Below are positions 6,293 through 21,486 of a DNA stretch of 32,759 bases, piece after piece. The stretch lies in the NCBI GenBank assembly GCA_009929415.1, contig SAAM01000006.1, forward strand, positions 1-32,759, written 5' to 3'. Every line of letters begins with the position of its first letter. The stretch's first letter is position 1. The position numbers were made by a program, and so were the translations under genes. The notes beneath the pieces were generated by a model that made no database searches, had not been told where the DNA came from, and saw only the letters and a program-made list of their open reading frames with translations. The DNA comes from Clostridia bacterium (lineage in GTDB: Bacteria > Bacillota > Clostridia > Peptostreptococcales > Filifactoraceae).

Positions 6293-7462
6293 TCAGCGTT
6301 TTTTCCACGCTTTTCTATATACATCGATTATCTGATCTATGGTTGGCTTTACAGGATTTGACGGCATGCAGGTGTCCTGCAGCGCAAGCTCTGCAAGCGC
6401 TCTGAAGTCTTCTTCTCTTACTCCGAGATCGCTGAGGCTTGCTGGTATGCCGACTTCGTGTGAAAGCTTTTTTATTTCATTTATGGTCTGCGCTACTGCT
6501 GCACGGGAACTGTATGAGGCTCCCTTAAGATCAAGCGCGCCGTATATCTTTTTGAAGTCATAGTGAGTCTTTTCATCTCTGGCATTGAACTCCATGACAT
6601 GTGGAAGGAGCACGGCATTGCATACTCCATGTGGAAGATTATAGAAGCCTCCGAGGGAATGCGCCATGGCATGGACCATTCCAAGCCCTGCATTTGAGAA
6701 TGCGAGCCCTGCGCTGTACTGAGCATAGGCCATCATCTCTCTTGAGTTCATGTCGTCTCCGTTTTTCACGGCGCGCGGGAGATGCTCTTTTATGGCGGTT
6801 ATCGCCCAGAGTGCATCCTTGTCTGTGAAAGGAGTCGCCTCGTTTGAAAGTACTGCCTCTATTGCATGGGTCATTGCATCCATCCCTGTAGCTGCCGTAA
6901 GGCTCTGCGGCATGGATTTCATCAGGTTCGTGTCATTTATGGCTATCCAGACACTGCAGTTGGTGTCTACCATAACCATCTTGGAATGTCTTTTTTCATC
7001 TGTTATTACATAGAAGGTCGTCACCTCTGAGCCTGTTCCTGCCGTAGTATTTACCGCGACTACCGGAAGCGATTTCTCGGATGACTTGTTCACGCCTTCG
7101 TAATCCTCGACTCTTCCTCCGTTTGCCAGTACTATGCCGACAGCCTTACAGGTATCTATCGCTGATCCTCCTCCAAGCGCCACTATAAAGTCCGGCTTTA
7201 TGTCTGCTGCGACGCTGAGGGCCTCGTTTACTATCTCAACCGTGGGGTTTGGCTTTACTCCGTAGTATATGAAGCTGTGTACTCCTGCGCCCGCAAGCTC
7301 TGTGCATATCTGGTCTGCAACTTTGCTTTCAAAGAGAAAGCTGTCTGTTATCACAAGCGCTTTTCTGAAGCCTTTTTTCATTATTTCTCCGCGAAGAAGC
7401 TCTATGGCTCCTGCCCCGAAGAAATTGGTCGATATCATGTTGACTCTGCAGGGATTATGCAT
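6293..7462 (-). CDS. Iron-dependent alcohol dehydrogenase, BMC operon
   Basis: A 389-residue group III (Fe2+) alcohol dehydrogenase that reduces an aldehyde to its alcohol with NAD(P)H. GGGSAIDTCKAV (about 97-108) is the nucleotide-binding motif. The metal ligands are visible as D195 and H199 (GMDAMTHAIE), H264 (MVHAMAHSLGG) and H278 (LPHG), the same spacing as FucO. I chose the ATG at 7462 because a GAGGTG site precedes it and it clears the previous gene by 10 bases. As the last gene of the operon it can recycle NAD+ by reducing the C2 aldehyde made by the aldolase, as PduQ does in Pdu compartments. No clear terminal targeting helix is seen. Confidence 0.93.
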   Translation of the reverse strand: MHNPCRVNMISTNFFGAGAIELLRGEIMKKGFRKALVITDSFLFESKVADQICTELAGAGVHSFIYYGVKPNPTVEIVNEALSVAADIKPDFIVALGGGSAIDTCKAVGIVLANGGRVEDYEGVNKSSEKSLPVVAVNTTAGTGSEVTTFYVITDEKRHSKMVMVDTNCSVWIAINDTNLMKSMPQSLTAATGMDAMTHAIEAVLSNEATPFTDKDALWAITAIKEHLPRAVKNGDDMNSREMMAYAQYSAGLAFSNAGLGMVHAMAHSLGGFYNLPHGVCNAVLLPHVMEFNARDEKTHYDFKKIYGALDLKGASYSSRAAVAQTINEIKKLSHEVGIPASLSDLGVREEDFRALAELALQDTCMPSNPVKPTIDQIIDVYRKAWKKR

Positions 7463-7472
7463 GTTTTTCACC

Positions 7473-8225
7473 TCATTTTTGTCCGAATTCCATGTTTCTG
7501 TAATCATGCGGGTCTATCTTTGCGAGCATGTCCATCTCCTGCTTTGTTGGGAGCGGAGTATAGCTTATGTCTATATATCTTATGTCAAAGCCTGTATTGC
7601 TTGCTACTTCTTCTATGCTTGATGTAGGATGTATGCTGTCGAGTATGAGCTCTCCGTCATACATTCTGAATATGCATAAAGGGGTAACTATCCTGTCTAT
7701 GTTTCCCTGGGTGGTCACGAAGTCCACCTTTTTTACGAATGTCCTTACGTCATGCTTAGTTCTCCATATTATGGCTCTTTTTGCTGTCGGTATGAGCACT
7801 GCGCTTCCTGCTCCGCCTGGCATCCTTACTTTTGGCTTGTTATAGTCTCCTATTACGGATGCGTTTACGTTTCCGGCGTTATCGAACTGGATTCCGCTGA
7901 GGAATGCGACATCGAGCCCGCCTCTCATTGAAAGGTCGAATACGTCTGAAAGCGGAAAATCCGCTACGCTCGTATCTGTAAGCGCGGTTCCTGCGCTGGT
8001 ATATTTCTGGAGCTCTGCCGGATATGGGTCTACTCCTCCCGGGATGTTAAGATGCACTGCGTCCGGTGCATGGAGCGCTTTTGCAAGCAGCACCGCTATC
8101 ATAGGCATGTGCGAGGAAACTCCGTGAAACACAGTATCTCCATCTTTTATGAGTCTTGCCATCGCGCATACCATTATGTCGCAGCTTCTTGCTGACTGCA
8201 CGCTGTTTTCGGATGTGTTGTTCAC
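7473..8225 (-). CDS. Class I CoA-transferase-like beta subunit, catalytic Glu missing
   Basis: A 250-residue homologue of the beta subunit of glutaconate CoA-transferase (GctB). It shares the NAGNVNASVIGDYNKPKVR stretch, the PGGAGSAV stretch and the PTSSIEEVASNTGFDI stretch with GctB. Aligned without gaps from the shared APD motif, the catalytic Glu54 of Acidaminococcus GctB (IIVESG) falls on Ile61 here (LNIPGG), with no Glu close by. The gene follows its alpha partner by 11 bases. Transfer of CoA between acids is the family reaction, but loss of the glutamate suggests a different activity, perhaps hydrolytic as in the IpdAB branch, or a non-catalytic role. Confidence 0.88.
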   Translation of the reverse strand: MNNTSENSVQSARSCDIMVCAMARLIKDGDTVFHGVSSHMPMIAVLLAKALHAPDAVHLNIPGGVDPYPAELQKYTSAGTALTDTSVADFPLSDVFDLSMRGGLDVAFLSGIQFDNAGNVNASVIGDYNKPKVRMPGGAGSAVLIPTAKRAIIWRTKHDVRTFVKKVDFVTTQGNIDRIVTPLCIFRMYDGELILDSIHPTSSIEEVASNTGFDIRYIDISYTPLPTKQEMDMLAKIDPHDYRNMEFGQK

Positions 8226-8236
8226 TGATTCCCTCC

Positions 8237-9064
8237 TTATCTGTAATCCTTTATCTTCTGAGCATCCAGGTAACTGCTCAGCTCCTGAGCGTCCTTCATG
8301 GCCTTGAATGCCTTTATGTGGTCTCTGTCTATATCATAATAGCCCTGGCATGAGCATGGCGCCGCTCCTCCTGGAGCGTGCACTACTGCGGAAACCATGA
8401 ATCCCGGTATGTCTACCTTCTGGGATGAGGTATGCAGTTTTGTATCTGCCTGAAACTTTGAGGTATCAACTATCTTCTCTGCTGAAACTATTATCTTTTT
8501 TGATGCCTTTGCCAGGAGCACGTCATCGAATTTTGGTCCGTATATGAGTGAATTCCCTCTGATATCTGCTTCCTGTACATGTATTATGGTGACGTCAGGC
8601 GCTATGGCCTTTACTACGGTTATCATCTCTCCCGAAAACGGATCTGCCATGCGCGTGAAATAGTCATTCGCATCTATCAGATCACTCACCATCAGTCCTT
8701 TTACAGGCATGAATGGTATCCCGTATACAGCTGCTCTGAGCGCGCTCATAACGGTATAGCATGCGTGTTCATTCGCCTTCACGGTTCCGCCCTGTACGGC
8801 TCTTCTGTAGTGGTCTGCAAGTGAGAACTCGGTCTCATAGCTTATAAAGCCTGCATCTACGCTTTTTACGCATCCACCAAAACACAGCATGTCTACGTCC
8901 ATGGCTCCGGCTGTCTTCACTACCTTAAGGTCTCTTCTGCCCTGTCTGACTGTTTCTCTTATGAGGGCCATCGGCGCTCTGTGGAGCACGTTTCCTCCCA
9001 CGCCAAGCGTGTCCCCGTCTCTGATCAGCTTTACTGCGTCAGAGATGTTCATCAGCTTGTTCAA
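8237..9064 (-). CDS. Class I CoA-transferase-like alpha subunit
   Basis: A 275-residue alpha-subunit homologue (GctA/IpdA type). It opens with the family's ISDAVKLIRDGDTLGVGGN, continues with KTAGAMDVDMLCFGGCVKSV and ends with a C-terminal Rossmann-like half. The start is TTG at 9064, chosen because AGGAGG sits about 8 bases upstream; the in-frame ATG four codons later is too far from that site. It is followed 11 bases on by the beta subunit, with which it should form a heteromer. Position in the BMC operon suggests that the acyl-CoA made from the aldehyde, or a CoA ester derived from it, is the substrate; this is inference. Confidence 0.9.
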   Translation of the reverse strand: MNKLMNISDAVKLIRDGDTLGVGGNVLHRAPMALIRETVRQGRRDLKVVKTAGAMDVDMLCFGGCVKSVDAGFISYETEFSLADHYRRAVQGGTVKANEHACYTVMSALRAAVYGIPFMPVKGLMVSDLIDANDYFTRMADPFSGEMITVVKAIAPDVTIIHVQEADIRGNSLIYGPKFDDVLLAKASKKIIVSAEKIVDTSKFQADTKLHTSSQKVDIPGFMVSAVVHAPGGAAPCSCQGYYDIDRDHIKAFKAMKDAQELSSYLDAQKIKDYR

Positions 9065-9085
9065 TAAAATCCCTCCTCTTAAGTT

Positions 9086-10417
9086 CTATTTTGCTGCGTT
9101 TGCTGCTATGTGGACTGCATCCCACACTCCCGCGAAAGGAGGTGCGTATACGAGGTCTGTCATTCCAAGCTCGTCTGTGGTCATGTTGTTGTGTATTGCA
9201 ACTGCGAATACGTCTACTCTCATAACCGCGCCTTTTATTCCGGCTGTCTGCGCTCCAAGGAGCCTTCTTGTGCCTGCTTCGTATATGAGCTTTATGGTTA
9301 TCGGCGTCGGGTCCGGATAATACGCCGGATGGTCCATGGCCTCTACTATGACTGTTCTGTAGTCTATTGCCTGTCTCTGGGCTTCTGCCTCGCCAAGTCC
9401 CGTACGTCCCATCTCGAGGTCGCATACCTTTATCGCTGCAGATCCGAGCGCTCCTGTGAATTTTATATGCTTGCCCATGATGTTCTCACCGGCTATTCTT
9501 CCGCATTTGTTGGCTACTGTTCCAAGGGCGAGGAATGCATTTTCCTTCAGGCCTTTGTGATACACGAGGCTGCAGTCGCCTGCTGCCCATATGTCGACTA
9601 TCGAGGTCCTCATCTCGCGGTCTACTATGAGTGCTCCGTTTGGGGCCATCTGTATGCCTGTGTCTCTGAGGAATTCTGTTGCCGGACGTACTCCTATCGA
9701 GAGCACTACGAGATCCGCCGGATACTGCCCCTTGTCTGTGACTACGCTGCTTACGCTCTGACCTCCCTGTATCGAAACTACTTTTTCTGATGTCCTGAGG
9801 CTTACTCCCTTTGAAATGAGCTCTTTTTCTGCAAGCGCGGATATCTCTCTGTCAAACGGCATGAGTATCCTGTCTGCGAATTCTACGCAGGTTACGTTCT
9901 TTCCAAGGTGAAGGAATGCGTCTACTGACTCGATTCCTATATATCCTCCGCCTACTACGACTACATTTCTGATCTGAGGGTCTGCTGCTATTTCCTTCAG
10001 GCGAAGGCCGTCCTCAAGCGTCTTGAGCTGATATACGCCTTTTCTGTCTATTCCTTCTATAGGCGGCTTTACTGCTGAGGCCCCCGTAGATATCATGAGC
10101 TTGTCATAGCTGTCTATGAATATGTCTCCTGTCTCGTGGTTTCTCACGAGGAGCTGTTTTTCTGATGGTATTACCTTTAGGACTTCATGATGCAGATGAG
10201 TCTTTATTCCTGTCTTTTCAAACTGCTCTCTGGTCCTTGCTATCATTTTGGTGTAGTCGTCGTTGAATCCGCCTACATAATATGGAAGCCCGCACGCTCC
10301 ATACGAAAGGTATCCGCCCTTTTCGTATACTGTTACCTCTGCCTGTGGGTCCATCCTCTTTATCTTTGAGGCCGCTGACATTCCTGCCGCTACTCCTCCT
10401 ATAACTGCTACCTTCAA
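9086..10417 (-). CDS. CoA-disulfide reductase-like FAD/NAD(P)H oxidoreductase
   Basis: A 443-residue pyridine nucleotide-disulfide oxidoreductase. It has an N-terminal FAD site (VIGGVAAGMSAA), a single redox cysteine C42 in SYGACGLPYY, an NAD(P)H site (VVVGGGYIGIES, mid-protein), a second FAD motif (IWAAGDCS) and the C-terminal dimerisation domain. One active cysteine in this context is typical of CoA-disulfide reductase and NADH oxidase/peroxidase relatives; the PYY after it favours the CoA-disulfide branch. No rhodanese domain is attached. The start is TTG, overlapping the previous stop by four bases, with GGAG six bases upstream. In this operon it could keep CoA reduced for the aldehyde dehydrogenase, or reduce a thiol/disulfide formed from a sulfur-containing substrate. 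Confidence 0.88.
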   Translation of the reverse strand: MKVAVIGGVAAGMSAASKIKRMDPQAEVTVYEKGGYLSYGACGLPYYVGGFNDDYTKMIARTREQFEKTGIKTHLHHEVLKVIPSEKQLLVRNHETGDIFIDSYDKLMISTGASAVKPPIEGIDRKGVYQLKTLEDGLRLKEIAADPQIRNVVVVGGGYIGIESVDAFLHLGKNVTCVEFADRILMPFDREISALAEKELISKGVSLRTSEKVVSIQGGQSVSSVVTDKGQYPADLVVLSIGVRPATEFLRDTGIQMAPNGALIVDREMRTSIVDIWAAGDCSLVYHKGLKENAFLALGTVANKCGRIAGENIMGKHIKFTGALGSAAIKVCDLEMGRTGLGEAEAQRQAIDYRTVIVEAMDHPAYYPDPTPITIKLIYEAGTRRLLGAQTAGIKGAVMRVDVFAVAIHNNMTTDELGMTDLVYAPPFAGVWDAVHIAANAAK

Positions 10418-11553
10418 ATCTGGCTCCTTTCCTGAATGGAATCTGCCTTTGCCTGTGCTTCGTCAATGGCCTGCCTTACGCTCTTTTCACCTGTGAATGC
10501 GCTGTATATCGCGTCATAAAGCACACCGTTCATATCTCCTGCCTCAGCAAGCGGCGGGAAGGGCTCTGCGTATTCTTCTATCATTCTGAGCTGGACTCTG
10601 TACCATGGGTATATGTCCGCACCCTTTTCATAATTGGATTTTCTTACAGGAGCTCCCGAACACTCTCCTGCGAGGGCATCGATTTCAGGGGATCTCAGGT
10701 ATTCAAGGAGTGCCTGTGCATCTTCCTTGTTCTTGCTTACTTCCGTTATCGCGAATGACCAGGTTACGTTCCACGCTGTGTCAAATGTCGAAAATCCTAT
10801 ATCTTCCTTTTCACTGCAGTCTTTCATTACTACGCCAAGCTGGCCGCTCCACGTGGTCGCCATCATGGCTTTTTTATCTGAAAGCATCTCTCTTATGTCA
10901 TCATTTCCATAGGTGTGTGTTTCCTCTGGCGCGAATTTTTTCAGAGATACGTATTTTTCAAGTTCATTTTCAAGCTCTGCGATATTGCAGCTTATTCCTG
11001 ATTCGGTCTGAGTGTATACGTCTTTTCCGCCGCTTCTCAGGTATGGCAGCGCATCAAGCAGTATCTCTGACTTTGCGGCCTTGAGGGCGATCGGATTCTG
11101 ATATCCTGCCTTATGTAATTTTTCGGCGATATCGACAAATTCATCCGCAGTCATTATCTCTCCAGGAAGCTTTCCTGCTGCCTTTTCTACCGCGCTTTTT
11201 CTGTATGCTATCATGTGTCCGTCACAGAATGATGGTGACAGATATGTCTTTCCCTTATACTGCATTTCTCTGGCTATGACTGGAAGTATGTCCTCGAAAT
11301 CATAGCTTATTTCCTGCAGGTATCCTTTTTCTACGAAATCTCTCAGCCAGAGATGCCCTGCTACCATTACGATATCGTAGTCTGCATTTCCCTGAAATGA
11401 TTTCACCATGGTCTCGAAATAATCGTCCCATGACACTATGTCGAATTCTGCTTCAACGTCTTTTTTGGGGAACTTTCTGAGCAGGTCCAGCCTGCTGTCT
11501 ACGTATACGCTTACTGCGGGGTCCTGTACCGCCAGTATCTTTATCTTCTTCAT
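10414..11553 (-). CDS. Solute-binding-protein-like protein without signal peptide
   Basis: A 379-residue protein resembling family 1 extracellular solute-binding proteins of ABC transporters: two-lobed composition, YDIVMVAGHLWLRDFVEKGYL, MIAYRKSAVEKA, and the C-terminal AITEVSKNKEDAQALLEYLRSPE. It begins MKKIKILAVQDPAVSVYVDS, with no hydrophobic leader and no lipobox cysteine, so it should stay in the cytoplasm. No in-frame extension encoding a signal sequence is seen; a good ribosome site leads straight to this ATG. It lies between the shell vertex gene and the flavoprotein gene, unlinked from any permease (the operon's own ABC importer has its own lipoprotein). A cytoplasmic ligand-binding or scaffold role is inferred; the function is unknown. 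Confidence 0.82.
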   Translation of the reverse strand: MKKIKILAVQDPAVSVYVDSRLDLLRKFPKKDVEAEFDIVSWDDYFETMVKSFQGNADYDIVMVAGHLWLRDFVEKGYLQEISYDFEDILPVIAREMQYKGKTYLSPSFCDGHMIAYRKSAVEKAAGKLPGEIMTADEFVDIAEKLHKAGYQNPIALKAAKSEILLDALPYLRSGGKDVYTQTESGISCNIAELENELEKYVSLKKFAPEETHTYGNDDIREMLSDKKAMMATTWSGQLGVVMKDCSEKEDIGFSTFDTAWNVTWSFAITEVSKNKEDAQALLEYLRSPEIDALAGECSGAPVRKSNYEKGADIYPWYRVQLRMIEEYAEPFPPLAEAGDMNGVLYDAIYSAFTGEKSVRQAIDEAQAKADSIQERSQI

Positions 11554-11573
11554 TTGTTCATCCCCCTTAAAGA

Positions 11574-11834
11574 TTATTCTTCTATCTGTGGTATCGAATC
11601 GACGATTCCGACAACAAGGGCGTCAACAGGAGCTGCACTGTCAAGGGCGTGTTGTGTGGTATTATCAGTCGTGATCAGCACGCATTCGCCGATTCCGGCT
11701 CCAAGCTTGTCTGCTGCAACAAATATTTCGTCTCGGTTTCCATAAAGTGGTCTTATCGTCAATAGCTTATATCCCACGAGATTCTGACATTTCCTTGTAG
11801 ATACAACTGTCCCAACTACTTTTCCTAAAATCAT
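11574..11834 (-). CDS. BMC vertex pentamer, EutN/CcmL family (BMC-P)
   Basis: An 86-residue protein with the EutN/CcmL fold signature: it starts MILGKVVGTVVSTRKCQ, continues LVGYKLLTIRP and ends VGIVDSIPQIEE. Such proteins form pentamers that cap the twelve vertices of the icosahedral shell. I chose the ATG at 11834 because AAGGAG lies eight bases upstream; the upstream GTG and ATG at 11843 and 11840 abut the ribosome site. It is the only vertex protein in the operon. Confidence 0.93.
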   Translation of the reverse strand: MILGKVVGTVVSTRKCQNLVGYKLLTIRPLYGNRDEIFVAADKLGAGIGECVLITTDNTTQHALDSAAPVDALVVGIVDSIPQIEE

Positions 11835-11859
11835 GTTCATCACTCCTTAGCCCGTTTTT

Positions 11860-12510
11860 TTATTTTTCTATTTTCTCGAATCTCAGCATCTGGCCCTGCT
11901 CGAGCGCGAATGCGTTTGCATTGTCTGTGTCTATGTGAAGGTCAAGCGCATAACTGCTCTTTACTCTGACCTTTACTCTGTCCATTACTCCGCCGCTTCG
12001 GCCTTCGACATAAACTTTTATATAGTCTCCGTCCTTTATTTCAAATGCCGCAGCCTCTTGCTCTGACATGTGAGCATGCCTCTCTGCTATTATTGCTCCC
12101 TGAGGCGCATCAAGCTCTCCTGCTGGTCCTTTTACCTTGAGCCCCGGAGTTCCTGAGAGGTCTCCCGATTCTCTTACCGGAGGCTTTATGCCCAGAGTCC
12201 TTGCATCTGAAAGCGAAAGCTCTGCCTGAAAGCCTGAACGTACGGGTCCCAGTATCCTCACCTTGTCGATGGTTCCTCTTGGTCCTGTAAGGCTAACTGT
12301 CTCCTGCGCTGCAAACTGTCCCGGCTGGCTGAGGGGCTTGAGAAATGTAAGCTGGTGTCCTTTTCCGAAAAGTATTTCCACTTCCTGCTGGGTGAGGTGT
12401 ACATGTCTTGCTGATATCCCCACCGGTATGAGCTTTTCTGCACTTTTCATCTTTGTTATTTCGGCAAGTACAAGCTTTGTTATCTGATCTATGAGGTTTT
12501 GTGTGTTCAT
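11860..12510 (-). CDS. pduL: BMC phosphotransacylase PduL
   Basis: A 216-residue PduL-type phosphate acyltransferase that converts acyl-CoA plus phosphate to acyl-phosphate and free CoA inside the compartment. The zinc ligands are visible: H36/H38 (SARHVHLT), H145/H147 (ERHAHMSE) and H192 (LHIDTD). The first about 20 residues (MNTQNLIDQITKLVLAEITK) form an amphipathic helix, like the encapsulation peptide of PduL in other compartments. Together with the aldehyde dehydrogenase it recycles CoA within the shell and yields acyl-phosphate for ATP synthesis by an acyl kinase, which is not encoded here. A ribosome site (GAAGGGG) precedes the ATG. Confidence 0.95.
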   Translation of the reverse strand: MNTQNLIDQITKLVLAEITKMKSAEKLIPVGISARHVHLTQQEVEILFGKGHQLTFLKPLSQPGQFAAQETVSLTGPRGTIDKVRILGPVRSGFQAELSLSDARTLGIKPPVRESGDLSGTPGLKVKGPAGELDAPQGAIIAERHAHMSEQEAAAFEIKDGDYIKVYVEGRSGGVMDRVKVRVKSSYALDLHIDTDNANAFALEQGQMLRFEKIEK

Positions 12511-12546
12511 ATTACCCCTTCCTTCAAGCTCTGTGCATATTAAGAA

Positions 12547-12584
12547 AGAAAACTAACTCTGCAAATAAACAAAGTCAGTTTTCT
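12547..12584 (-). other. Intercistronic hairpin between shell gene and pduL
   Basis: Twelve-base arms (12547-12558 and 12573-12584; AGAAAACTGACT with AGTTAGTTTTCT on the minus strand, one G-T pair) enclose a 14-base loop. No T run follows it directly, so it is more likely an mRNA-stabilising or processing element than a full terminator. It would favour higher expression of the upstream shell genes than of the enzymes downstream. Confidence 0.6.
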
Positions 12585-12595
12585 ACAGTCTTTAT

Positions 12596-12868
12596 TTACT
12601 TGATCATTGGCAGGATTGAATTGATGTCTGCGTGTGGTCTTGGGATAACGTGTACTGATACTACTTCGCCAAGTCTTGATGCTGCTTCGGCTCCGCTCTC
12701 TGTAGCTGCCTTTACTGCTCCAACATCTCCCTGTACTATTACTGTAACAAGGCCTGAACCTATTTTCTCTGTTCCTACTAATTCTACCTCTGCTGATTTA
12801 AGCATTGCGTCTGCTGCTTCGATTGATGCTACTAGTCCTCTTGTTTCGATCATTCCTACTGCTTTCAT
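12596..12868 (-). CDS. BMC-H hexameric shell protein (second copy)
   Basis: A 90-residue single-domain BMC protein of the PduA/EutM/CcmK type, with the family opening [19 protein letters not shown], the [21 protein letters not shown] strand-helix region, and VHVIPRPH near the end. It forms hexagonal tiles of the shell; the GSG loop near residue 38 would line the pore. It overlaps the end of the tailed shell gene by four bases (ATGA), so translation is probably coupled. It is a close paralogue of the protein encoded at 13375-13647. Confidence 0.96.
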
Positions 12869-13368
12869 GATTTCGTCCTCCTGGTTTTTGGTTTCTGAGT
12901 TTGATTGGTTTGTTTTGCATTATCCTGCGCTTCCTGAGGCGGCTCTGCTGCCGGTGCCTCATCAGCAGATTTTTCGGCCTGGTCAGCTGAGTCTTCTGCC
13001 TGAACGCTTTGTGCTGGCTCAGCGCTGATGTTCTGAGCCTGATTATCCTGATTATCCTGTTTATCTTGTTTATCTTCTGCAAGGTTGAGCAGTCTTTTTA
13101 TCTCCGGATGGGGATTTGATATCGCAACGGCTACTTTGATATTCTTCTCTCCTATCCTTCCTCCTGTAGCATATACCGCTTCTATGGCCGCATTTACCGA
13201 GGATGTGTCTCCACCTACTATTATCGTCACCATCCTGCCTCCAAGCTTTTTTTCGCATGATACGAGGTGTACGTCTGATGCCTTGAGCATTTCGTCAAGA
13301 GCGATAAGGGCATTGGTGAAAAAGTTGATCTCAACTACTCCTATTGCACTGAAAATTTTTTTATTCAT
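12865..13368 (-). CDS. BMC-H shell protein with long disordered C-terminal tail
   Basis: A 167-residue protein. Residues about 8-96 are a BMC domain ([48 protein letters not shown]). Residues 97-167 are a low-complexity tail rich in Q, D, N, E, A and P that begins with a three-residue repeat ([12 protein letters not shown]) and ends in a basic patch (KPKTRRTKS). The tail has no recognisable domain, unlike the helix-turn-helix of EutK. It could bind cargo, RNA or DNA, or the cell-side positioning machinery; this is inference. The gene lies between two near-identical BMC-H genes and starts six bases after the first. Confidence 0.93.
13041..13076 (-). repeat. Four 9-bp tandem repeats in the shell-protein tail
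   Basis: Read on the plus strand, GATTATCCT occurs twice, followed by GTTTATCTT twice (13041-13076). On the coding strand the array encodes the repeated Q-D-N/K triplet at the start of the disordered tail. Slippage could change the tail length in three-residue steps without breaking the frame. Confidence 0.8.
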
Positions 13369-13374
13369 TATGCT

Positions 13375-13647
13375 TTATTTCATTCCCGGAAATACTTTTG
13401 CAGTGTCATCGTGAGGTCTGGCAATAACGTGTACGCTTACCAGTTCTCCGAGTCTTGATGCCGCTTCGGCACCAGCTTCTGTAGCCGCCTTTACTGCTCC
13501 AACTTCCCCTTTTACTATCACTGTAATAAGGCCAGATCCGATTTTCTCTGTTCCTACAAGCTCTACGTCTGCAGATTTGAGCATTGCGTCTGCCGCTTCT
13601 ATAGATGCCGTAAGGCCTCTTGTTTCTATCATTCCTATTGCCGCCAT
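13375..13647 (-). CDS. BMC-H hexameric shell protein (first copy)
   Basis: A 90-residue PduA/EutM-type hexamer subunit ([48 protein letters not shown]). It differs from the copy at 12596-12868 mainly near the two termini and at conservative positions, so the pair looks like a duplication with the tailed shell gene between the copies. A GGAGGTA ribosome site precedes the ATG. It is expected to be a bulk facet protein. Confidence 0.96.
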
Positions 13648-13668
13648 ATTACTACCTCCATCTGATGG

Positions 13669-13983
13669 TTATCCGTTTATTTTCACCTTGGTAATTTTTC
13701 CCAGTTGAGATGTTCCCTCATATGGATTGTCAATTACGCTTGTTATTATTTCCTGTTCTGTGTTGAATCTGAGCGCCGCCTCGTGAGCTGTCTGAGTCGC
13801 TATCTTTACGTCTGAGACGCTGCCTTCGAACTTCACCTGTACTGTGAGGGGTATGTTGGCACTGGAGTCCTTGGGATTGATGGTATCAATGCCAAGAATT
13901 CTTATATCCGTAGCCTTGCACGCCTTGTCCATTGCATACAGGGCTGTACCATATCCCGCAACTTCTAAAAATCCCATTGCCAT
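13669..13983 (-). CDS. BMC-H-type shell protein with an extended loop
   Basis: A 104-residue single BMC-domain protein, MGFLEVAGYGTALYAMDKACK at the start. Between the usual second and third strands it has a longer stretch (DTINPKDSSANIPLTVQVKF) where the two 90-residue paralogues have a short IGSGL loop. That changes the pore region. It lies 21 bases upstream of the first bulk BMC-H gene and 16 bases after the aldehyde dehydrogenase. It may form a minor hexamer with a distinct pore; no tandem BMC-T protein exists in this operon. Confidence 0.88.
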   Translation of the reverse strand: MAMGFLEVAGYGTALYAMDKACKATDIRILGIDTINPKDSSANIPLTVQVKFEGSVSDVKIATQTAHEAALRFNTEQEIITSVIDNPYEGTSQLGKITKVKING

Positions 13984-13999
13984 GATTACACCTGCTTTT

Positions 14000-15541
14000 C
14001 TATATTATCCTGAAGCCGCCTTCGCTGAGCGCGCATCTTCTCTGTCTAGTGAATGACACTGCATTCGTTATTCCTTCGCCTGTAGGACCTGCGATTGTCA
14101 TCGTAGTGTGTCCTTCTCCGCCGAATCCAACTCCTGCAAGCGTGGCTCCGTTCTTTACGAATATCGTGGTCTCTACTTCTCTTGCGAAGCGTGTAAGATT
14201 ATTTATATTCTGTGAGAACATGGATGCAGTATGTCTGTTTCCGTGCTCTGCGATCATTGCATATTTTATGGCTTCGTCAAGATTTCTGCATTTTACTATC
14301 GGAAGTACCGGCATCAGCTGCTCAAGCAGCACGAATGGGTGATCCGGGCCGACTTCACATATCAGAAGCCTGCAGTCGCTCTTTCCCTGCACTCCTATCG
14401 CATCAAGCATTTTTCCTGCGTCTTTTCCTACCCAGTTCTTGCTTGTGTGATACTCTCTTCCTTTTGGAGTCTCGTCATATGTGAGCACGAGATTCATTAT
14501 CTTCTCCAGCTGTGACTCGTTAAGAAGGAATGCGCCTTCCTGGATCATGTTGTAGACAAGGTCTGTAGCGACGCTCTCGATTACGAATACTTCCTTTTCT
14601 GCAAGGCAGAGTATGTTGTTGTCGAATGAAGCTCCCTTGAAGATCTCCTTTGCCGCTCTCTTTATGTCGGCTGTCTCGTCTACTATTACCGGAGGGTTTC
14701 CTGCTCCTGCTCCTATTACTTTCTTTCCTGACTGAAGCAGTGAACGCACCATCGGCATTCCGCCTGTTCCTACCAGCATTCTTACTTTCTCGTTCTTGCT
14801 GAGCTCAGAAACTGTCTCAAGCGTAGGGTTTTTTACCATGGTAGCAAGGTTTCTTGGTCCGCCTGCTTCTTCTATCGCTCTGTTTATCATCTGAACGGCA
14901 AATCTGCAGACTTCCTTTGCGCTTGGATGCACGTTGAATACCACGCTGTTTCCGCCTGACAGCATAGAGATCACGTTGTTTATGATCGTCTCTGTTGGGT
15001 TTGTAACAGGCGTTATAGCTCCTATTACTCCATATGGCGAGTGCTCTACTATAGTAAGTCCGTCGTCTCCTGATATTGCTTCTGTCCTGAGGCATTCTGT
15101 GCCTGGAGTTCTTTCGAGCACGAGCATGTTCTTAAGTATCTTGTCCTCATATCTTCCAAGTCCGGTTTCATCCACTGACATTCTTGCGAGCTTTTCTGCG
15201 TTTTTTATGCCTGTCTCTCTGATACTCTTTATGAGTCTTTCTCTGTCTCTTAGCTGAAATCCTGCCTGATATGCCTTCTGCGCAAGGTATGCTGCCTCTA
15301 CGGCCTGATCCATCGTGTCAAACACGCCGTAATCTCCCTGAACTGTCTGAGCGGCTGCTGACACTGGAACATATGGTGATTTCATGCTGAACTCCTGAAC
15401 CGGAACGCCCGGCCTGTATGTCTTTACCTGCGGGCCTGCTGAGGCTGGGGCCTCTGGAGCTTCTGCCTGAGCTGCCTGACTCACTACGTTTTTCAGAACC
15501 TGCTGTACTATCAGCTCTATATCTTTTTGTCCTATTTCCAT
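14000..15541 (-). CDS. CoA-acylating aldehyde dehydrogenase with N-terminal targeting helix
   Basis: A 513-residue PduP/EutE-type enzyme oxidising an aldehyde to acyl-CoA with NAD+ and CoA. The catalytic cysteine is C312 in SFDNNILCLAEKE. The NAD region includes ITPVTNPTETIINN (about 176-190) and GTGGMPMVRS (about 258-267). Residues 1-20 (MEIGQKDIELIVQQVLKNVV) form an amphipathic helix, followed by an Ala/Pro linker (about 21-40), which is the standard encapsulation-peptide layout. It starts four bases after the aldolase ends, suggesting stoichiometric expression with it. The likely substrate is the C2 aldehyde released by that aldolase. Confidence 0.95.
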   Translation of the reverse strand: MEIGQKDIELIVQQVLKNVVSQAAQAEAPEAPASAGPQVKTYRPGVPVQEFSMKSPYVPVSAAAQTVQGDYGVFDTMDQAVEAAYLAQKAYQAGFQLRDRERLIKSIRETGIKNAEKLARMSVDETGLGRYEDKILKNMLVLERTPGTECLRTEAISGDDGLTIVEHSPYGVIGAITPVTNPTETIINNVISMLSGGNSVVFNVHPSAKEVCRFAVQMINRAIEEAGGPRNLATMVKNPTLETVSELSKNEKVRMLVGTGGMPMVRSLLQSGKKVIGAGAGNPPVIVDETADIKRAAKEIFKGASFDNNILCLAEKEVFVIESVATDLVYNMIQEGAFLLNESQLEKIMNLVLTYDETPKGREYHTSKNWVGKDAGKMLDAIGVQGKSDCRLLICEVGPDHPFVLLEQLMPVLPIVKCRNLDEAIKYAMIAEHGNRHTASMFSQNINNLTRFAREVETTIFVKNGATLAGVGFGGEGHTTMTIAGPTGEGITNAVSFTRQRRCALSEGGFRII

Positions 15542-15545
15542 GATG

Positions 15546-16403
15546 TTACCTCTTTAGACTTTCCAATACCTGCTGTGTTATCTTCTGTGTCAGCTCTCTT
15601 ATCATGGCTTCTTTTTCTGTGCCTGCGGATGATACTGAGCATCCTGAAGCCTGATAGGCTGTGAGTGGTTTTTCTGTCTTCACAACGTCTGTGGTATTTG
15701 TTTCTTTAAGTGAACATGGTGGCGTGCCGCCTGATGTTATTCCAAGCTTTTCTCTTATGTCGATAAGCTCGTTTACCTGGCTGCAGCTGAGCTCGTTTGC
15801 TCTTCCTATTATTCTTCCTGTGTACATGAGCACGGTTGCATAGTACTCAAGTGATTCAAGTCTGTGGTATGCCTCTGTGAGGTCTTTTCCCCATGAGAGC
15901 GCTCCGTGGTTTGCAAGAAGCACTGCGTTGTGCGTATTGCAGTATGGGGCTATCGAGTCTGGAACATCCTGGCTTCCCGGTGTCGCGTAGTGCGCTATCG
16001 GTACTGACCCCAGGTTTACTACCGCTTCCGGAAGTATAGCTCTGTCAAGGCTTATGCCTGCTATCGCAAACGATGTCGCTACCGGCGGATGCGCATGTGT
16101 TACGGCCATTACGTCCGGATTCTCATTGTATACGCGAAGGTGCATCTTTACTTCTGAGGATGGCTTGAGTTTTCCCATGAGCACTTTTCCGTCAAAGTTC
16201 ATCTTTACGAGCATGTCCGGTGTCATGAATCCCTTTGACACCCCTGTAGGTGTGGTCCAGATTGTGTTTGGACCTACTCTGCAGCTTATATTTCCGTCGT
16301 TTGAAGCCACAAAGCCTTTGTCGTACATTCTTTTTCCTATTGCGATTATCTGCTTTTTGGCTTCATAGTCTGATAAATATTTAAAGCTGTTGTATCCTGT
16401 CAT
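15546..16403 (-). CDS. Class II sugar-phosphate aldolase with C-terminal targeting helix
   Basis: A 285-residue FucA/RhaD-type zinc aldolase. The catalytic Glu is E84 (SSEVKMH) and the zinc ligands are H103/H105 (THAHPP) and H166 (LANHGAL). The core ends near residue 220. A flexible linker then leads to an amphipathic C-terminal helix (EKEAMIRELTQKITQQVLESL, about 263-283), an encapsulation-peptide arrangement. Given the MtnK and MtnA genes immediately upstream, the likely reaction is cleavage of 5-methylthio- or 5-deoxyribulose 1-phosphate to DHAP plus (methylthio)acetaldehyde or acetaldehyde. Fuculose or rhamnulose 1-phosphate would be alternatives, but their kinases and isomerases are absent. 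The ATG at 16403 is taken; a TTG one codon upstream is also possible. Confidence 0.93.
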   Translation of the reverse strand: MTGYNSFKYLSDYEAKKQIIAIGKRMYDKGFVASNDGNISCRVGPNTIWTTPTGVSKGFMTPDMLVKMNFDGKVLMGKLKPSSEVKMHLRVYNENPDVMAVTHAHPPVATSFAIAGISLDRAILPEAVVNLGSVPIAHYATPGSQDVPDSIAPYCNTHNAVLLANHGALSWGKDLTEAYHRLESLEYYATVLMYTGRIIGRANELSCSQVNELIDIREKLGITSGGTPPCSLKETNTTDVVKTEKPLTAYQASGCSVSSAGTEKEAMIRELTQKITQQVLESLKR

Positions 16404-16452
16404 CAAATTTTCCCCTCCTTAGTCTGAGAGTTTCAGTAAACTGTATATTAAA

Positions 16453-17541
16453 TTATTTTGCCTGTGCCTGTGCTTTCTTCTCAAAGATCGCCTTAAGTGA
16501 TTCTTCAAATGGAGGGTAAGCTATTCCGTATTCTGTTATTATTCCGGCGATGCACTCATGATCTGTAACGTCGAATGCCGGGTTGAATGTCTTTACGCCG
16601 TCTGGTGCCATTCTTTCCTTGTACCACATTTCTGTGATCTCCTCTGCAGGTCTTTCTTCTATGTGTATGTCTTTTCCTGTCTGGCAGTTCATGTCTATAG
16701 TCGAAGTAGGGGCACAGATGTACATTGGAACTCCGTAGTATTTGGCAAGTATTCCTACGCCTGATGTCCCTATCTTGTTTGCTGTGTCTCCGTTTGCTGC
16801 TACTCTGTCACAGCCTACGAATACCGCGTCTATCCAGCCTTTTTTCATTACGCTTGATGCCATGTTGTCACAGATGAGCGTTACGTCTATTCCTGCTGAG
16901 TGGAGCTCGAATGCAGTAAGTCTTGCTCCTTGAAGAAGCGGTCTTGTCTCGTCTGCAAACACTCTGAAGTTGTATCCTTTTTCGTGTCCGAGGTACATAG
17001 CTGCTGTAGCTGTTCCGTATTTTGAAGTCGCAAGCTGTCCTGCGTTGCAGTGCGTAAGAAGTCCGTATCCCGGCTTTACAAGTGAAAGGCCGTATTCTCC
17101 GATAGTCTTGCATACCCAGATGTCTTCTTCTTTTATTTCAACTGCTTCCTTGTGAAGAAGCTCTACTATCTCTGCTACTGATTTGTCCTTGTTGTCCAGA
17201 ACGACTTTTTCCATTCTGTTAAGTGCCCATGAAAGATTTACTGCCGTAGGTCTTGATGAATCCAGGTAGTCCTTTGCCTTTACGAATTCGCTGTAGAATG
17301 TATCAAAGTCTTCCGCCTTTATGTCCTTTGCCGCAAGGTATGCTCCTATGGCGCCTGCTATTCCTATTGCCGGAGCTCCTCTTACTTCTAGTCTGTATAT
17401 GGCATCCCAGATCTGCTTCTGAGTGTTCAGTCTCAGAATCTCGATATCATAAGGAAGCTTTGTCTGGTTTATAATGACAAGCTCGCCTTTTTCGCTGTCA
17501 AGTGCTACGGTGTCATAGTTGAGTATGTTTTTTTGTTCCAT
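16453..17541 (-). CDS. mtnA: 5-methylthioribose-1-phosphate isomerase
   Basis: A 362-residue MtnA-family aldose-ketose isomerase converting 5-methylthioribose 1-phosphate to the ribulose 1-phosphate. Catalytic C165 ([12 protein letters not shown]) and D245 ([17 protein letters not shown]) are intact and spaced as in Bacillus MtnA, and the substrate-binding RGAPAIG motif is at about 54-60. Distinguishing features of the eIF2B subunits are absent. MtnA relatives also act on 5-deoxyribose 1-phosphate, so the natural substrate stays open. It follows mtnK by 24 bases. The rest of the classic methionine salvage pathway (MtnB, MtnW/MtnX, MtnD) is not present. Confidence 0.95.
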
Positions 17542-17565
17542 GTTGCTGTCTCCCTGTCTTTAATA

Positions 17566-18795
17566 TTATACGGTTACCTTTGCTACTGCGTCTTTAAGCG
17601 CTCCTGTGAAGTCTTTTCCTGTCTTGAAGCTGTCGCGGTTCATTATGAAGCTTTTAGCTGTAAGGATGCAGATTTTTTCCGCTGCAGCTCTTTTGCTTTC
17701 ATCGGCTATCGTCGTTATGTCCTTTACGTTTGCAAGCCCTACTATTCTTCTTACAAGCTCAAGGCCTGCTACTGCTGCCGTGTCTCTGAGTATAGTGCCA
17801 AGATACCACTCCTTGAATCCAGGAGTCTTTGCCATGTGGTCTTTTACGTTTTCGTCATAGTATCTGCCGTATTTCTCTATGAAAAGATCTATCGTGTCTT
17901 CCACTGACTGCTCTACCCAGCCTGTGAAATCTGCTTTTTCTGCTTCATCTTCTATCGTGAAGGTTCCGTTGTTCCATGCAAAGAACATGTTTGCCACTAC
18001 GTTTCCTATGTCATATCCCATTGGTCCGTAGAATGCGAACTCAGGGTCGAATATCTTTGTTGAGTGGTCGTTTATGAATATCGAGCCTGTATGAAGGTCT
18101 CCGTGTATCAGCGACTGCGCGTTGTTCATGAATTCAAACTTGCATTTTGCTGCTTCAAGATGAAGCGCTGTGTCTTCATAAAGCTCCTGCTGTACAAAGT
18201 CAGCTACCGGAGGGAATACATTGTTTCTGTTTCCTATGTTGTTGAACGGCTCTGTATATACGAGGTCTTCTGAAATCTCGCAAAGCTCAGGGTTGATGTA
18301 GTTTTTGACATCGTCCTTCTTTGCCTTGTGCTCTACGCATACATCTGTAGTTCCAAGAAGCGTATTTACCATGAATGTCGATATCTGATCCGCAAAATGA
18401 GGGAATTTCTCATGGTTCATCAGCGCTGTTCTCATTATAGTATAGTCAAAAAGGTCTTCCATAGTGCATGAACACATAACTGCGTCATAAAGATATACCT
18501 CAGGTACAAGCCCTGGTGCAAGCTCGCCCTGCTTCTTAAGTATTTCTGCCTCGATTCTGGTTCTGTCTGTTGAAAGCTTTATGTCTGCAGATATTCTTGC
18601 TTCTCCGCCTGCCTGCTTTACTATCACTGACTTTCCTGTTGACTCTTCCTTAACTCTGAAAACATAGTTGAGGTTTCCGTCTCCGATCTCCTTTGAAGTG
18701 AGCACTGCATCTGCAGGAAAAATATCAAGCTTTTCCTTTACATACTCTATTACGTCCTGGTCATTCATTAAAAAATAAGTTTCAAATTTTGACAT
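17566..18795 (-). CDS. mtnK: 5-methylthioribose kinase
   Basis: A 409-residue kinase of the MtnK family that phosphorylates the anomeric hydroxyl of 5-methylthioribose with ATP. The catalytic loop HGDLHTGSIF (about 231-240) places the catalytic Asp at D233, and the metal-binding DPEFAFYGPMGYDIG follows at 250-264; both are diagnostic of MtnK rather than general aminoglycoside kinases. The N-terminal GDGNLNYVFRV (about 38-48) forms the nucleotide lobe. I chose the ATG at 18795 because AAAGGA precedes it; an upstream in-frame ATG at 18813 lacks a site. It lies 45 bases after the importer permease, so imported pentose would be phosphorylated at once. Confidence 0.95.
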   Translation of the reverse strand: MSKFETYFLMNDQDVIEYVKEKLDIFPADAVLTSKEIGDGNLNYVFRVKEESTGKSVIVKQAGGEARISADIKLSTDRTRIEAEILKKQGELAPGLVPEVYLYDAVMCSCTMEDLFDYTIMRTALMNHEKFPHFADQISTFMVNTLLGTTDVCVEHKAKKDDVKNYINPELCEISEDLVYTEPFNNIGNRNNVFPPVADFVQQELYEDTALHLEAAKCKFEFMNNAQSLIHGDLHTGSIFINDHSTKIFDPEFAFYGPMGYDIGNVVANMFFAWNNGTFTIEDEAEKADFTGWVEQSVEDTIDLFIEKYGRYYDENVKDHMAKTPGFKEWYLGTILRDTAAVAGLELVRRIVGLANVKDITTIADESKRAAAEKICILTAKSFIMNRDSFKTGKDFTGALKDAVAKVTV

Positions 18796-18840
18796 GGTTT
18801 CTGGTCCTTTCATAAATGTATTTATTATATTAAAGCTTCG

Positions 18841-19848
18841 CTAATTTTTCTTTCTGAAGTACGTACTTGCAAGTGCTATCGCAAGAACTGCTCCCTTTAC
18901 TATATCAAGTGAGTAGTATGGAACTGACATCATTACAAGTCCGTTCTCAAGGATACCTACAAGAAGCGCTCCTACAAGTGTTCCTATCGCGTTGGCCTTT
19001 CCTGAGCCTGCGAATGAGAATCCTATATATGCCGCTGCAACTGCAGGCATAAGATATCCTGCTCCTGCGTTTATCTGTGCTGATCCAACCCTTGCCGCTA
19101 TAAGGATACCACCCATTGATGCGAAAAGCGTTGAAAGGAAGTATGCAAGTGCGCGGTATTTTTCTACCGGTATACCCGAAAGTCTTGCTGCTTCAAGGTT
19201 TCCACCTACTGCATACATGTATCTTCCGTGCTTTGTGTAAGTAAGGAATATGTGTACTACAAATACTATTACAAGCATTATGAGTATTATCCACGGTGCC
19301 TGCCCTATCTTTGAGAAGAGCTCCGGAACCTTTCCTGTAGTTATAGTTCCGTCAAGTCTTGCCATATTCTGAGAAACAGATCCTCCACCTGAGTATGTCA
19401 TCGCAACTCCCTGGAATATGAACATGGATGCAAGAGTCGCAAGCATGTCAGGCACTCTCAGCTTTACTATAAGGAATGAGTTCACTGCCGCTACTACAAG
19501 TGCCACGAGAAGCGCAAGTCCTATCGAAGTGAATGTAGACATGCCATACCATACGAACATCGTCATTACTAGCGATGTCGCAAACGTAGCCGTAGATCCA
19601 ACTGAAAGGTCGAATCCGTTTACTGTAAGTGATATTGTAACTCCTATTGCTATTACCGTAACTATCGATATTCCTCTTAGTATTGTAGTCATGTTGCTCA
19701 TCGTAAGGAATGTTGTCGGCATTAGCGCTCCAAACAGCGCTACAAGGAACACGATCGTTATTACCGTACCCCATTTGCTTATGAACTCTATGATCGAGTT
19801 CTTGTTCTTCTTATTTTCTGATTTCTCAACCTTTATAGTCGATTCCAT
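18841..19848 (-). CDS. Ribose-type ABC transporter permease
   Basis: A 335-residue polytopic membrane protein of the RbsC/LsrC family. It has about ten hydrophobic segments, the family's GFDLSVGSTATFATSLV near residue 75, GGNLEAARLSGI and the C-terminal GILENGLVMM. With the ATPase and lipoprotein encoded upstream it forms a sugar importer. Two copies of this single permease would make the homodimeric channel. It starts two bases after the ATPase stop, with an AGGAGGAC ribosome site overlapping the end of that gene. Substrate specificity cannot be read from sequence; the downstream kinase points to a 5-modified ribose. Confidence 0.94.
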   Translation of the reverse strand: MESTIKVEKSENKKNKNSIIEFISKWGTVITIVFLVALFGALMPTTFLTMSNMTTILRGISIVTVIAIGVTISLTVNGFDLSVGSTATFATSLVMTMFVWYGMSTFTSIGLALLVALVVAAVNSFLIVKLRVPDMLATLASMFIFQGVAMTYSGGGSVSQNMARLDGTITTGKVPELFSKIGQAPWIILIMLVIVFVVHIFLTYTKHGRYMYAVGGNLEAARLSGIPVEKYRALAYFLSTLFASMGGILIAARVGSAQINAGAGYLMPAVAAAYIGFSFAGSGKANAIGTLVGALLVGILENGLVMMSVPYYSLDIVKGAVLAIALASTYFRKKN

Positions 19849-19850
19849 TA

Positions 19851-21374
19851 CTAACGTCCTCCTGTTGAATAATAAAGAAGTTCTTCTTCATTTGTATTTG
19901 CGATTTCAAGTTCTTTTACGATTTCTCCGTCATACATCACATATGTTCTGTCAGCTATTCCAAGGATCTCTCCAAATTCGCATGAAGCATATATTATGCC
20001 CTTGCCCATCTCTGCAAGGCGTCCTATGAGCTCAAATATGTCCTGCTTTGCTCCTACGTCTACTCCCTTTGTCGGCTCGTCCAGTATATATATGTCAGCG
20101 TCTGATATCAGCCATTTTCCAACGGCAACCTTCTGCTGATTTCCTCCTGAAAGGAGCTTTACAAGCTGGTTTTCTGAAGGCGTCTTTATTCCAAGATCTG
20201 CAATGATTTCCTTCGCTGCCGCTTTTTCCGCATTCTTGTCGATGAAGCTGAACTTTTTGGAATATTTGTCAAGCGATGTAGCTGAAAGGTTTGCATAAAC
20301 CGGATCTTCTACGAGTATTCCTTCTTTTCTTCTCTCTTCAGGCACAAGCGCGAGTCCCTGCTTTACGGCGCTGAAAGGGTTTGTGATCTTAAGAGGCTTT
20401 CCGCTCAGCCTTATTTCTCCCTGGCTCTGCTTCATAGCTCCAAACAGGGTCTTGCAGAGCTCTGTCTTTCCGGCTCCAACCAGTCCTGATATTCCTATTA
20501 TCTCGCCTTTTCTTACATTGAAGCTTACGTTCTTTACGGATCCTTCCTTTTCATGAAGGCCTTCTACTTCGAGGAGAACTTCTCCAATTTCTATCTCTTT
20601 CTTTGGATATCTATCATCGAACTTTCTGCCAAGCATCATTTCTACTACCTGCTTTGGCGTAAGATTATTGTCAATAGGCTTGTTGGCAACTACTGTGCCG
20701 TCTTTCATTATTGTTATGTTCTCACAGATTTCAAAAAGCTCGTTAAGTCTGTGCGATATGAAGATTACTCCAACATTTTCATTCTGAGAAAGGTCTCTTA
20801 CTATCCTGAAAAGCTCCTTTGTCTCAGTGTTGCTCAGCGGTGCGGTCGGCTCATCGAGTACGAGGAACCTGCATTCTTCTACCACTGCTCTTGCTATCAG
20901 TACCATCTGTTTCTGCGCAAGCGAAAGATCGCTTACCAGATCTTTTATATTCATCGAAATATTAAGTTTCTCCAGAATAGCCTCTGCTCTTGTATGTATT
21001 TCCTTCCAGTTGACCATCTGTTTCTTGCCCATATTGTTAACTGTGCTGTTGAGCATTATGTTTTCTGCAACGCTTAGATACGGGATGAGCGCAGTATCGA
21101 CTTCCTGATACACTATCTCTATACCCTTGCTTTTTGCTGCTTTTGGAGAGCGAATCTCTTCCTCTTTTCCATCTATGAATATCTTGCCTTCATAGTGTGA
21201 ATTTACTCCTGACAGTACCTTCATCAGGGTAGATTTTCCTGCACCATTTGCTCCTATAAGTGCATGAATTGTTCCACTTTCCATTTCAAAATCGACGTTT
21301 GAAAGGGCTTTTACTCCAGGAAACTCTATAGATATATCCTGCATTTGTAGCTTTATACGCTTTGTCTGTTTCAT
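19851..21374 (-). CDS. Ribose-type ABC transporter ATPase (two nucleotide-binding domains)
   Basis: A 507-residue RbsA/MglA-type protein with two fused ABC domains. Domain 1 has Walker A GANGAGKST (about 41-49), a degenerate signature (LSLAQKQMV) and Walker B FLVLDEPTAPL. Domain 2 has a Walker A GLVGAGKTE, signature LLSGGNQQKVAVGKW and Walker B IYILDEPTKGVD. This asymmetry is normal for carbohydrate uptake transporters of the CUT2 class. A hairpin precedes the gene, between it and the lipoprotein gene. Confidence 0.95.
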   Translation of the reverse strand: MKQTKRIKLQMQDISIEFPGVKALSNVDFEMESGTIHALIGANGAGKSTLMKVLSGVNSHYEGKIFIDGKEEEIRSPKAAKSKGIEIVYQEVDTALIPYLSVAENIMLNSTVNNMGKKQMVNWKEIHTRAEAILEKLNISMNIKDLVSDLSLAQKQMVLIARAVVEECRFLVLDEPTAPLSNTETKELFRIVRDLSQNENVGVIFISHRLNELFEICENITIMKDGTVVANKPIDNNLTPKQVVEMMLGRKFDDRYPKKEIEIGEVLLEVEGLHEKEGSVKNVSFNVRKGEIIGISGLVGAGKTELCKTLFGAMKQSQGEIRLSGKPLKITNPFSAVKQGLALVPEERRKEGILVEDPVYANLSATSLDKYSKKFSFIDKNAEKAAAKEIIADLGIKTPSENQLVKLLSGGNQQKVAVGKWLISDADIYILDEPTKGVDVGAKQDIFELIGRLAEMGKGIIYASCEFGEILGIADRTYVMYDGEIVKELEIANTNEEELLYYSTGGR

Positions 21375-21423
21375 CGTCTCACATCCATCCCATTTTAAAA
21401 AACTAATTTATCCATATTTAAGA

Positions 21424-21452
21424 ATAGAGAAGTGGAGTGTATACTTCTCTAT
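21424..21452 (-). other. Intercistronic hairpin after the binding-protein gene
   Basis: Perfect 10-base arms (21424-21433 and 21443-21452; ATAGAGAAGT/ACTTCTCTAT) surround a nine-base loop. It lies between the solute-binding lipoprotein and the ATPase and is not followed by a T run. Such elements often stabilise the binding-protein mRNA or partly terminate so that the lipoprotein exceeds the membrane components. Confidence 0.65.
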
Positions 21453-21486
21453 CCTAAATATATTCAATAATTAAATTAAATTGCTG

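Follow-up and report, generated by a model that had tools for sequence, protein, structure and literature searches.

Introduction

What is a solute-binding protein that carries no export signal doing in the operon of a bacterial microcompartment (BMC)? The question arises from a 32,759-nucleotide stretch of DNA (the window; contig SAAM01000006.1 of the Clostridia bacterium assembly GCA_009929415.1), in which a leaderless family 1 solute-binding protein, referred to here as SBP1, is encoded within a BMC operon. A sequence-only reading of the window had suggested a metabolite sensor, a cargo scaffold or a chaperone for a toxic intermediate. A gene of this type is easily labelled 'extracellular solute-binding protein' and overlooked, and our literature search found no papers on a cytoplasmic solute-binding protein of the SBP1 kind.

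The SBP1 gene and its operon

The genome to which the window belongs is a fragmented bin with 88.8% completeness and 7.6% contamination. A syntenic isolate of Proteocatella sphenisci (L011) shows the window itself to be genuine. The features of the operon are listed in Table 1. SBP1 starts at an ATG behind a good, G-rich ribosome-binding site (AAGGGGGATGAACAA-ATG); this ATG follows an upstream in-frame stop and is the earliest possible start, and the codons preceding it do not encode a hydrophobic stretch. The protein scores 70.3 bits with the Pfam profile SBP_bac_1 (PF01547), whose cut-off is 26, and two orthologues from outside BMC operons score 61–62 bits. In the direction of transcription, EutN lies upstream and the CoA-disulfide-reductase-like flavoprotein (CoADR) downstream, and the SBP1 stop codon TGA (10414–10416) shares 4 bp with the TTG start of the flavoprotein gene (10417). 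The sequence-only reading was right in placing a leaderless family 1 protein of a BMC operon between the vertex protein and the flavoprotein, with a four-base overlap with the latter, and in giving the operon a lipoprotein of its own, which is RbsB-like.

Table 1. Features of the window operon, listed in the order of transcription.
Feature	Position	Strand	Remarks
RbsB-like lipoprotein, the importer's own leadered receptor	21487–22578	(-)	lipobox ...SASLLAGCG
Importer ATPase, RbsA/AraG type, two NBDs	19851–21374	(-)	profile match and tree
CUT2-type importer permease (BPD_transp_2)	18841–19848	(-)	profile match and co-occurrence
MtnK, S-methyl-5-thioribose kinase	17566–18813	(-)	above curated cut-off
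MtnA, S-methyl-5-thioribose-1-phosphate isomerase	16453–17541	(-)	above curated cut-off
Class II aldolase (PF00596)	15546–16406	(-)	5-deoxyribulose-1-P/MTRu-1-P aldolase type by context
CoA-acylating-type aldehyde dehydrogenase	14000–15541	(-)	N-terminal encapsulation-peptide-like helix
Four BMC-domain shell genes (span 12596–13983)	12596–12868, 12865–13368, 13375–13647, 13669–13983	(-)	
PduL-type phosphotransacylase (PTAC)	11860–12510	(-)	N-terminal encapsulation-peptide-like helix
EutN/CcmL vertex protein	11574–11843	(-)	
SBP1, leaderless family 1 solute-binding protein	10414–11553	(-)	379 aa from ATG
CoA-disulfide-reductase-like flavoprotein (CoADR)	9086–10417	(-)	TTG start
CoA transferase subunits A and B	7473–9064	(-)	profile match
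Iron-containing alcohol dehydrogenase, lactaldehyde-reductase-like	6293–7507	(-)	profile match

A cognate pair of CUT1 permeases (BPD_transp_1) is absent beside SBP1; the sole importer of the window operon is of the CUT2 type, with its own RbsB. CUT2 importer genes were found by BLAST beside SBP1 in other loci too, and a leadered RbsB receptor is present in every importer operon where it was read.

Orthologues of SBP1

Proteocatella sphenisci (85% identity) has an orthologue, as do Acetoanaerobium noterae (44%), for which an unannotated plasmid-collection record carries the operon, and several clostridial metagenome-assembled genomes; the homologues spread over several clostridial families and a second order. 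The samples were drawn from the available species with single E-value cut-offs (1e-35 for SBP1, 1e-55 or 1e-60 for the permease), and gene neighbourhoods were inspected across roughly 20 kb. The orthologues group in a single clade that excludes the leadered family 1 proteins, though the branches to the outgroup are long. Most of the loci found are BMC operons, as the proposed check of homologues for BMC linkage had anticipated, and there SBP1 usually lies between EutN and CoADR. The regulator varies, being of LacI types in the window and of two DeoR subtypes elsewhere, while SBP1 stays. At one locus (G092), SBP1 adjoins a soluble chemoreceptor-like protein of 275 aa with an sCache_3_3 and an MCP signalling domain (L021, 10312–11139, minus strand).

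Candidate paralogues in the window's own genome were rejected. L002 and L004–L006 encode ordinary leadered solute-binding proteins of at most 22–27% identity where a long alignment exists, and the match in L003 lies within a longer, LacI-like reading frame. The leaders of L002, L004, L005 and L006 end in '...FSAG' or '...FAAG', unlike that of the operon lipoprotein, and are possibly spirochaete-like, in a bin with 7.6% contamination.

The missing leader

Neither leader nor lipobox was found in SBP1 of the window or in any full-length orthologue examined. All 13 full-length homologues examined (38–85% identical) begin directly at strand 1 (...LAVxDPAV...), and a motif close to LAVxDPAVxxY opens every full-length orthologue whose start was read. 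The maximal hydrophobicity of the first 40 residues (Kyte–Doolittle, 14-residue window) is 0.9–2.0 in SBP1 proteins versus 2.0–3.1 in the leaders of the RbsB proteins that these operons encode, and 1.04 versus 1.96 for the pair in the window. Loss of a leader through a wrong start site or a sequencing error, which would have undone the earlier observation, is rejected in view of the earliest possible start, the non-hydrophobic codons above it and the leaderless orthologues. The absence of a leader is an ancestral trait of the family and not an error. SBP1 proteins contain 3–7 cysteines, a count as for cytosolic proteins, whereas the mature RbsB proteins mostly contain none; leadered family 1 proteins reach up to 5, so this argument for a cytosolic SBP1 is weak. 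SBP1 probably acts inside the cell, its export signal being permanently gone. The comparison of orthologues thus agrees with the original picture of a conserved, leaderless, presumably cytoplasmic ligand-binding protein.

Fold and conserved cleft

An AF2 model of SBP1 (pLDDT 92.6, pTM 0.89) has the two-lobed binding-protein fold. It matches the trehalose/maltose-binding protein TMBP (1eu8) over 368 residues at 2.3 Å with a Z-score of 41.4, and the best structural neighbours are all binding proteins, with no enzyme among them. The model is closer to the ligand-bound than to the apo forms of MalE3 and SmoF (for MalE3, TM 0.86 to the maltose-bound and 0.77 to the apo form), which is weak evidence because prediction may favour closed forms.

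Across 14 orthologues, 52 positions are invariant, many of them in loop motifs (DPAVxxY, AGHxW, PSFcDGH, SEI, WxGQxG, WxxxWSF and WY), and most are not common to leadered solute-binding proteins. The invariant residues sit in loops that line the cleft in MalE and TMBP. D111, W235 and W265 align with conserved D/W positions of sugar binders, positions that we take to touch the ligand in those structures. Among the proteins compared, H67, H113, S162–E163, Q238 and W261 are peculiar to the SBP1 family. SBP1 therefore resembles the family 1/CUT1 proteins MalE, TMBP and SmoF (PF01547) in whole-length fold, Pfam membership and these three aligned residues, but differs from them in lacking a leader or lipobox in the orthologues examined, in lacking a CUT1 permease and in having its own invariant cleft-loop residues.

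SBP1 follows the importer, not the shell

Three SBP1 operons (G668, G794 and G804) have no shell genes within the roughly 20 kb read. Their layout is DeoR-RbsB-ATPase-permease-MtnA-(aldolase)-SBP1-MtnK, with an aldolase nearby. The G668 operon also contains an aldehyde:ferredoxin oxidoreductase (L026, 12031–13821) in place of the BMC aldehyde route. The survey of the window's order for SBP1 took in 394 genomes and the comparison with the permease 388; among the latter, the SBP1-positive and the permease-positive genomes are the same (7/7, zero discordance). In a second order (38 genomes), the three genomes with SBP1 are also the three with the importer permease. The corresponding Fisher values are very small, but they take no account of kinship or of linkage within the operon.

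Another genome, G054, retains the BMC, aldehyde dehydrogenase, PduL, CoADR, CoA transferase, MtnK and MtnA genes, and importer and SBP1 are deleted. What is left of SBP1 in the interval from EutN to the flavoprotein is its opening codons and roughly 26 codons from its end (L064, 5887–5994); of the permease, only the final 74 nt survive, between the CoA transferase and MtnK (8932–9023; 89% identical to G037), so that two separate blocks have been lost from one operon. This co-deletion is stronger evidence than the co-occurrence counts, but it is one pair of events in one fragmented genome. Four further genomes (G110, G085, G071 and G122) have a close MtnK (56–58%) with neither an importer nearby nor SBP1, and an aldolase is nearby only in G122. 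SBP1 has no extension resembling an encapsulation peptide; it starts at strand 1, and it has much the same length and C terminus whether or not the locus encodes a BMC. At the level of gene content, these distributions show SBP1 to be coupled to the importer rather than to the shell, and the proposal of an organelle scaffold or cargo fails on the three shell-free operons, the loss from a retained BMC operon and the missing extension.

In the importer tree, related importers stand with MtnK and without SBP1 in Bacillus-type loci (L113, L115 and L114, the last with the RuBisCO-like, HAD and ARD genes of full aerobic methionine salvage). The CUT2 importer of these three loci, accompanied by MtnK and in L113 and L114 also by MtnA, is a candidate methylthioribose importer of methionine salvage. 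An obligatory transporter subunit is rejected, since these relatives of the importer lack SBP1; SBP1 therefore accompanies the combination of importer and aldolase route, not import as such. The sequence-only reading had held that homologues found mainly next to permeases would count against it. SBP1 does track a permease, but this permease is of the CUT2 class, is served by a leadered receptor of its own and has relatives that operate elsewhere in the absence of SBP1.

The DHAP shunt and the microcompartment

The kinase MtnK, the isomerase MtnA and a class II aldolase convert 5-deoxyribose or methylthioribose into DHAP and an aldehyde (PMC6079011, PMC12632272). This gene set is complete in the operon, with MtnK and MtnA above their curated cut-offs and the aldolase identified by PF00596, and by gene content the operon is a 5-deoxyribose/methylthioribose DHAP shunt. 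The aldehyde part of the pathway would be enclosed by the BMC, and the locus at 6293–22578 likely encodes a microcompartment for 5-deoxyribose/methylthioribose; no papers linking BMCs with these sugars were found in the literature search. Only in BMC loci are the aldolase of the window and its relatives extended at the C terminus, by a stretch that closes with an amphipathic helix; they measure 260–315 aa there versus 201–231 aa without a BMC, a gain of about 30–110 aa. This extension is a candidate encapsulation peptide.

By the gene content given in Axen 2014 (PMC4207490), the nearest published type is that of the PVM-like BMC loci, with which the window shares a class II aldolase, an excess of BMC-domain over EutN-type genes and an origin in Firmicutes. 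The window has the aldolase, the aldehyde dehydrogenase and four BMC-domain genes to one EutN; it differs in its LacI-type regulators, whereas most of its relatives have DeoR, as the PVM-like loci described there do. The main text of that paper mentions no methylthioribose genes and no solute-binding protein. The drdK-drdI-drdA clusters of 5-deoxyribose salvage (PMC6079011) likewise combine MtnK, MtnA and class II aldolase with transporter genes, but in the window the set is joined to SBP1 and, as in most loci, to a BMC.

A proposed role and its alternatives

Our leading interpretation, held at somewhat less than even confidence, is that SBP1 is a cytosolic binding protein that handles imported 5-deoxypentose between importer and kinase; its cytoplasmic location, the identity of its ligand and its position between the two are what we infer. 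A MalE-like family 1 protein would have lost its leader in the family ancestor and been taken into the cytoplasm, where it would serve the uptake-dependent branch of 5-deoxypentose catabolism. The RbsABC-type importer would bring in 5-deoxyribose and/or 5-methylthioribose, the conserved cleft of SBP1 would capture the sugar and SBP1 would hand it to MtnK, the sugar most likely being converted before or during this transfer to the anomer that the kinase can use; MtnA and then the aldolase would act after MtnK. SBP1 would thus take the role that RbsD/FucU mutarotases play beside other pentose and deoxyhexose importers. RbsD and FucU are cytosolic mutarotase partners of importer and kinase, and SBP1 is like them in proposed role and operon position, although the folds are unrelated. 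Anomerisation or hand-over is proposed because of this analogy and because a Denitrovibrio drd cluster with transporter genes includes a fucose-mutarotase homologue (PMC6079011).

Enzymes that evolved from solute-binding proteins are documented (PMC7683729). It is possible, at a lower level of confidence, that SBP1 has turned into an enzyme of the cytosol, such as a 5-deoxypentose anomerase, or into a partner handing substrate to MtnK, and so founds a new class of leaderless binding proteins coupled to an importer with a different receptor. The anomerase or hand-over activity itself is doubtful. RbsD/FucU-family genes occur elsewhere in 9/13 of the SBP1 genomes and may already supply a mutarotase of a different family; the importer relatives in Bacillus-type MtnK/MtnA operons have no SBP1, and therefore imported methylthioribose presumably reaches MtnK unaided there.

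The main rival, itself rather unlikely, is a cytosolic sensor: SBP1 would bind the sugar after import and pass a signal to the importer, a regulator or chemotaxis, with no chemistry of its own. The binding-protein fold with its conserved cleft and the chemoreceptor-like neighbour (sCache_3_3 and MCP signalling domain) in G092 speak for this role, and the coupling to the importer would suit a sensor of uptake. That neighbour occurs in one locus only, however, SBP1 has no output domain, and the regulator changes type between loci while SBP1 stays.

It is improbable that SBP1 catalyses other chemistry, such as C–N cleavage of an imported 5'-deoxynucleoside. Thiaminase I, an enzyme of solute-binding-protein fold, and cyclohexadienyl dehydratase are precedents for this fold doing chemistry; SBP1 has invariant polar residues (D11, H67, D111, H113 and E163) and a weak similarity to thiaminase I (20.2 bits; structures 4kys and 2thi–4thi). 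The score is far below the NCBIfam equivalog cut-off of 175, however, and the nearest candidate catalytic cysteine, C110, is a serine in G804 and so not essential; with no strictly conserved cysteine at that position, a thiaminase-like enzyme is unsupported. PF01048, the superfamily to which the nucleosidases and phosphorylases usually belong, occurs in every SBP1 genome except the incomplete one of the window, and is rejected as a missing enzyme.

A component of the BMC, whether luminal cargo, scaffold or aldehyde chaperone, is very improbable and largely refuted. Most SBP1 genes do belong to BMC operons, as a rule flanked by EutN and CoADR; the three operons without BMC genes and its loss from the otherwise retained BMC operon of G054 stand against such a part, including the chaperone for a toxic intermediate first suggested, and SBP1 keeps the same length and C terminus whether a BMC is there or not, where the aldolase gains its helix-ended extension. 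That SBP1 is a second extracellular receptor, exported without a classical leader, is scarcely credible: it belongs to a receptor family and is coupled to the importer, but the orthologues examined are leaderless and contain cysteines, its class is wrong for a CUT2 permease, and every importer operon read has a leadered RbsB.

Significance

The 5-deoxypentoses are waste sugars of SAM and radical-SAM chemistry. No such substrate for this type of BMC locus was found in the literature searched, and SBP1 helps to assign one. SBP1 represents a whole orthologous family without the usual export route that is gained and lost with a 5-deoxypentose importer, and it offers a tractable case of a binding protein relocated to the cytosol.
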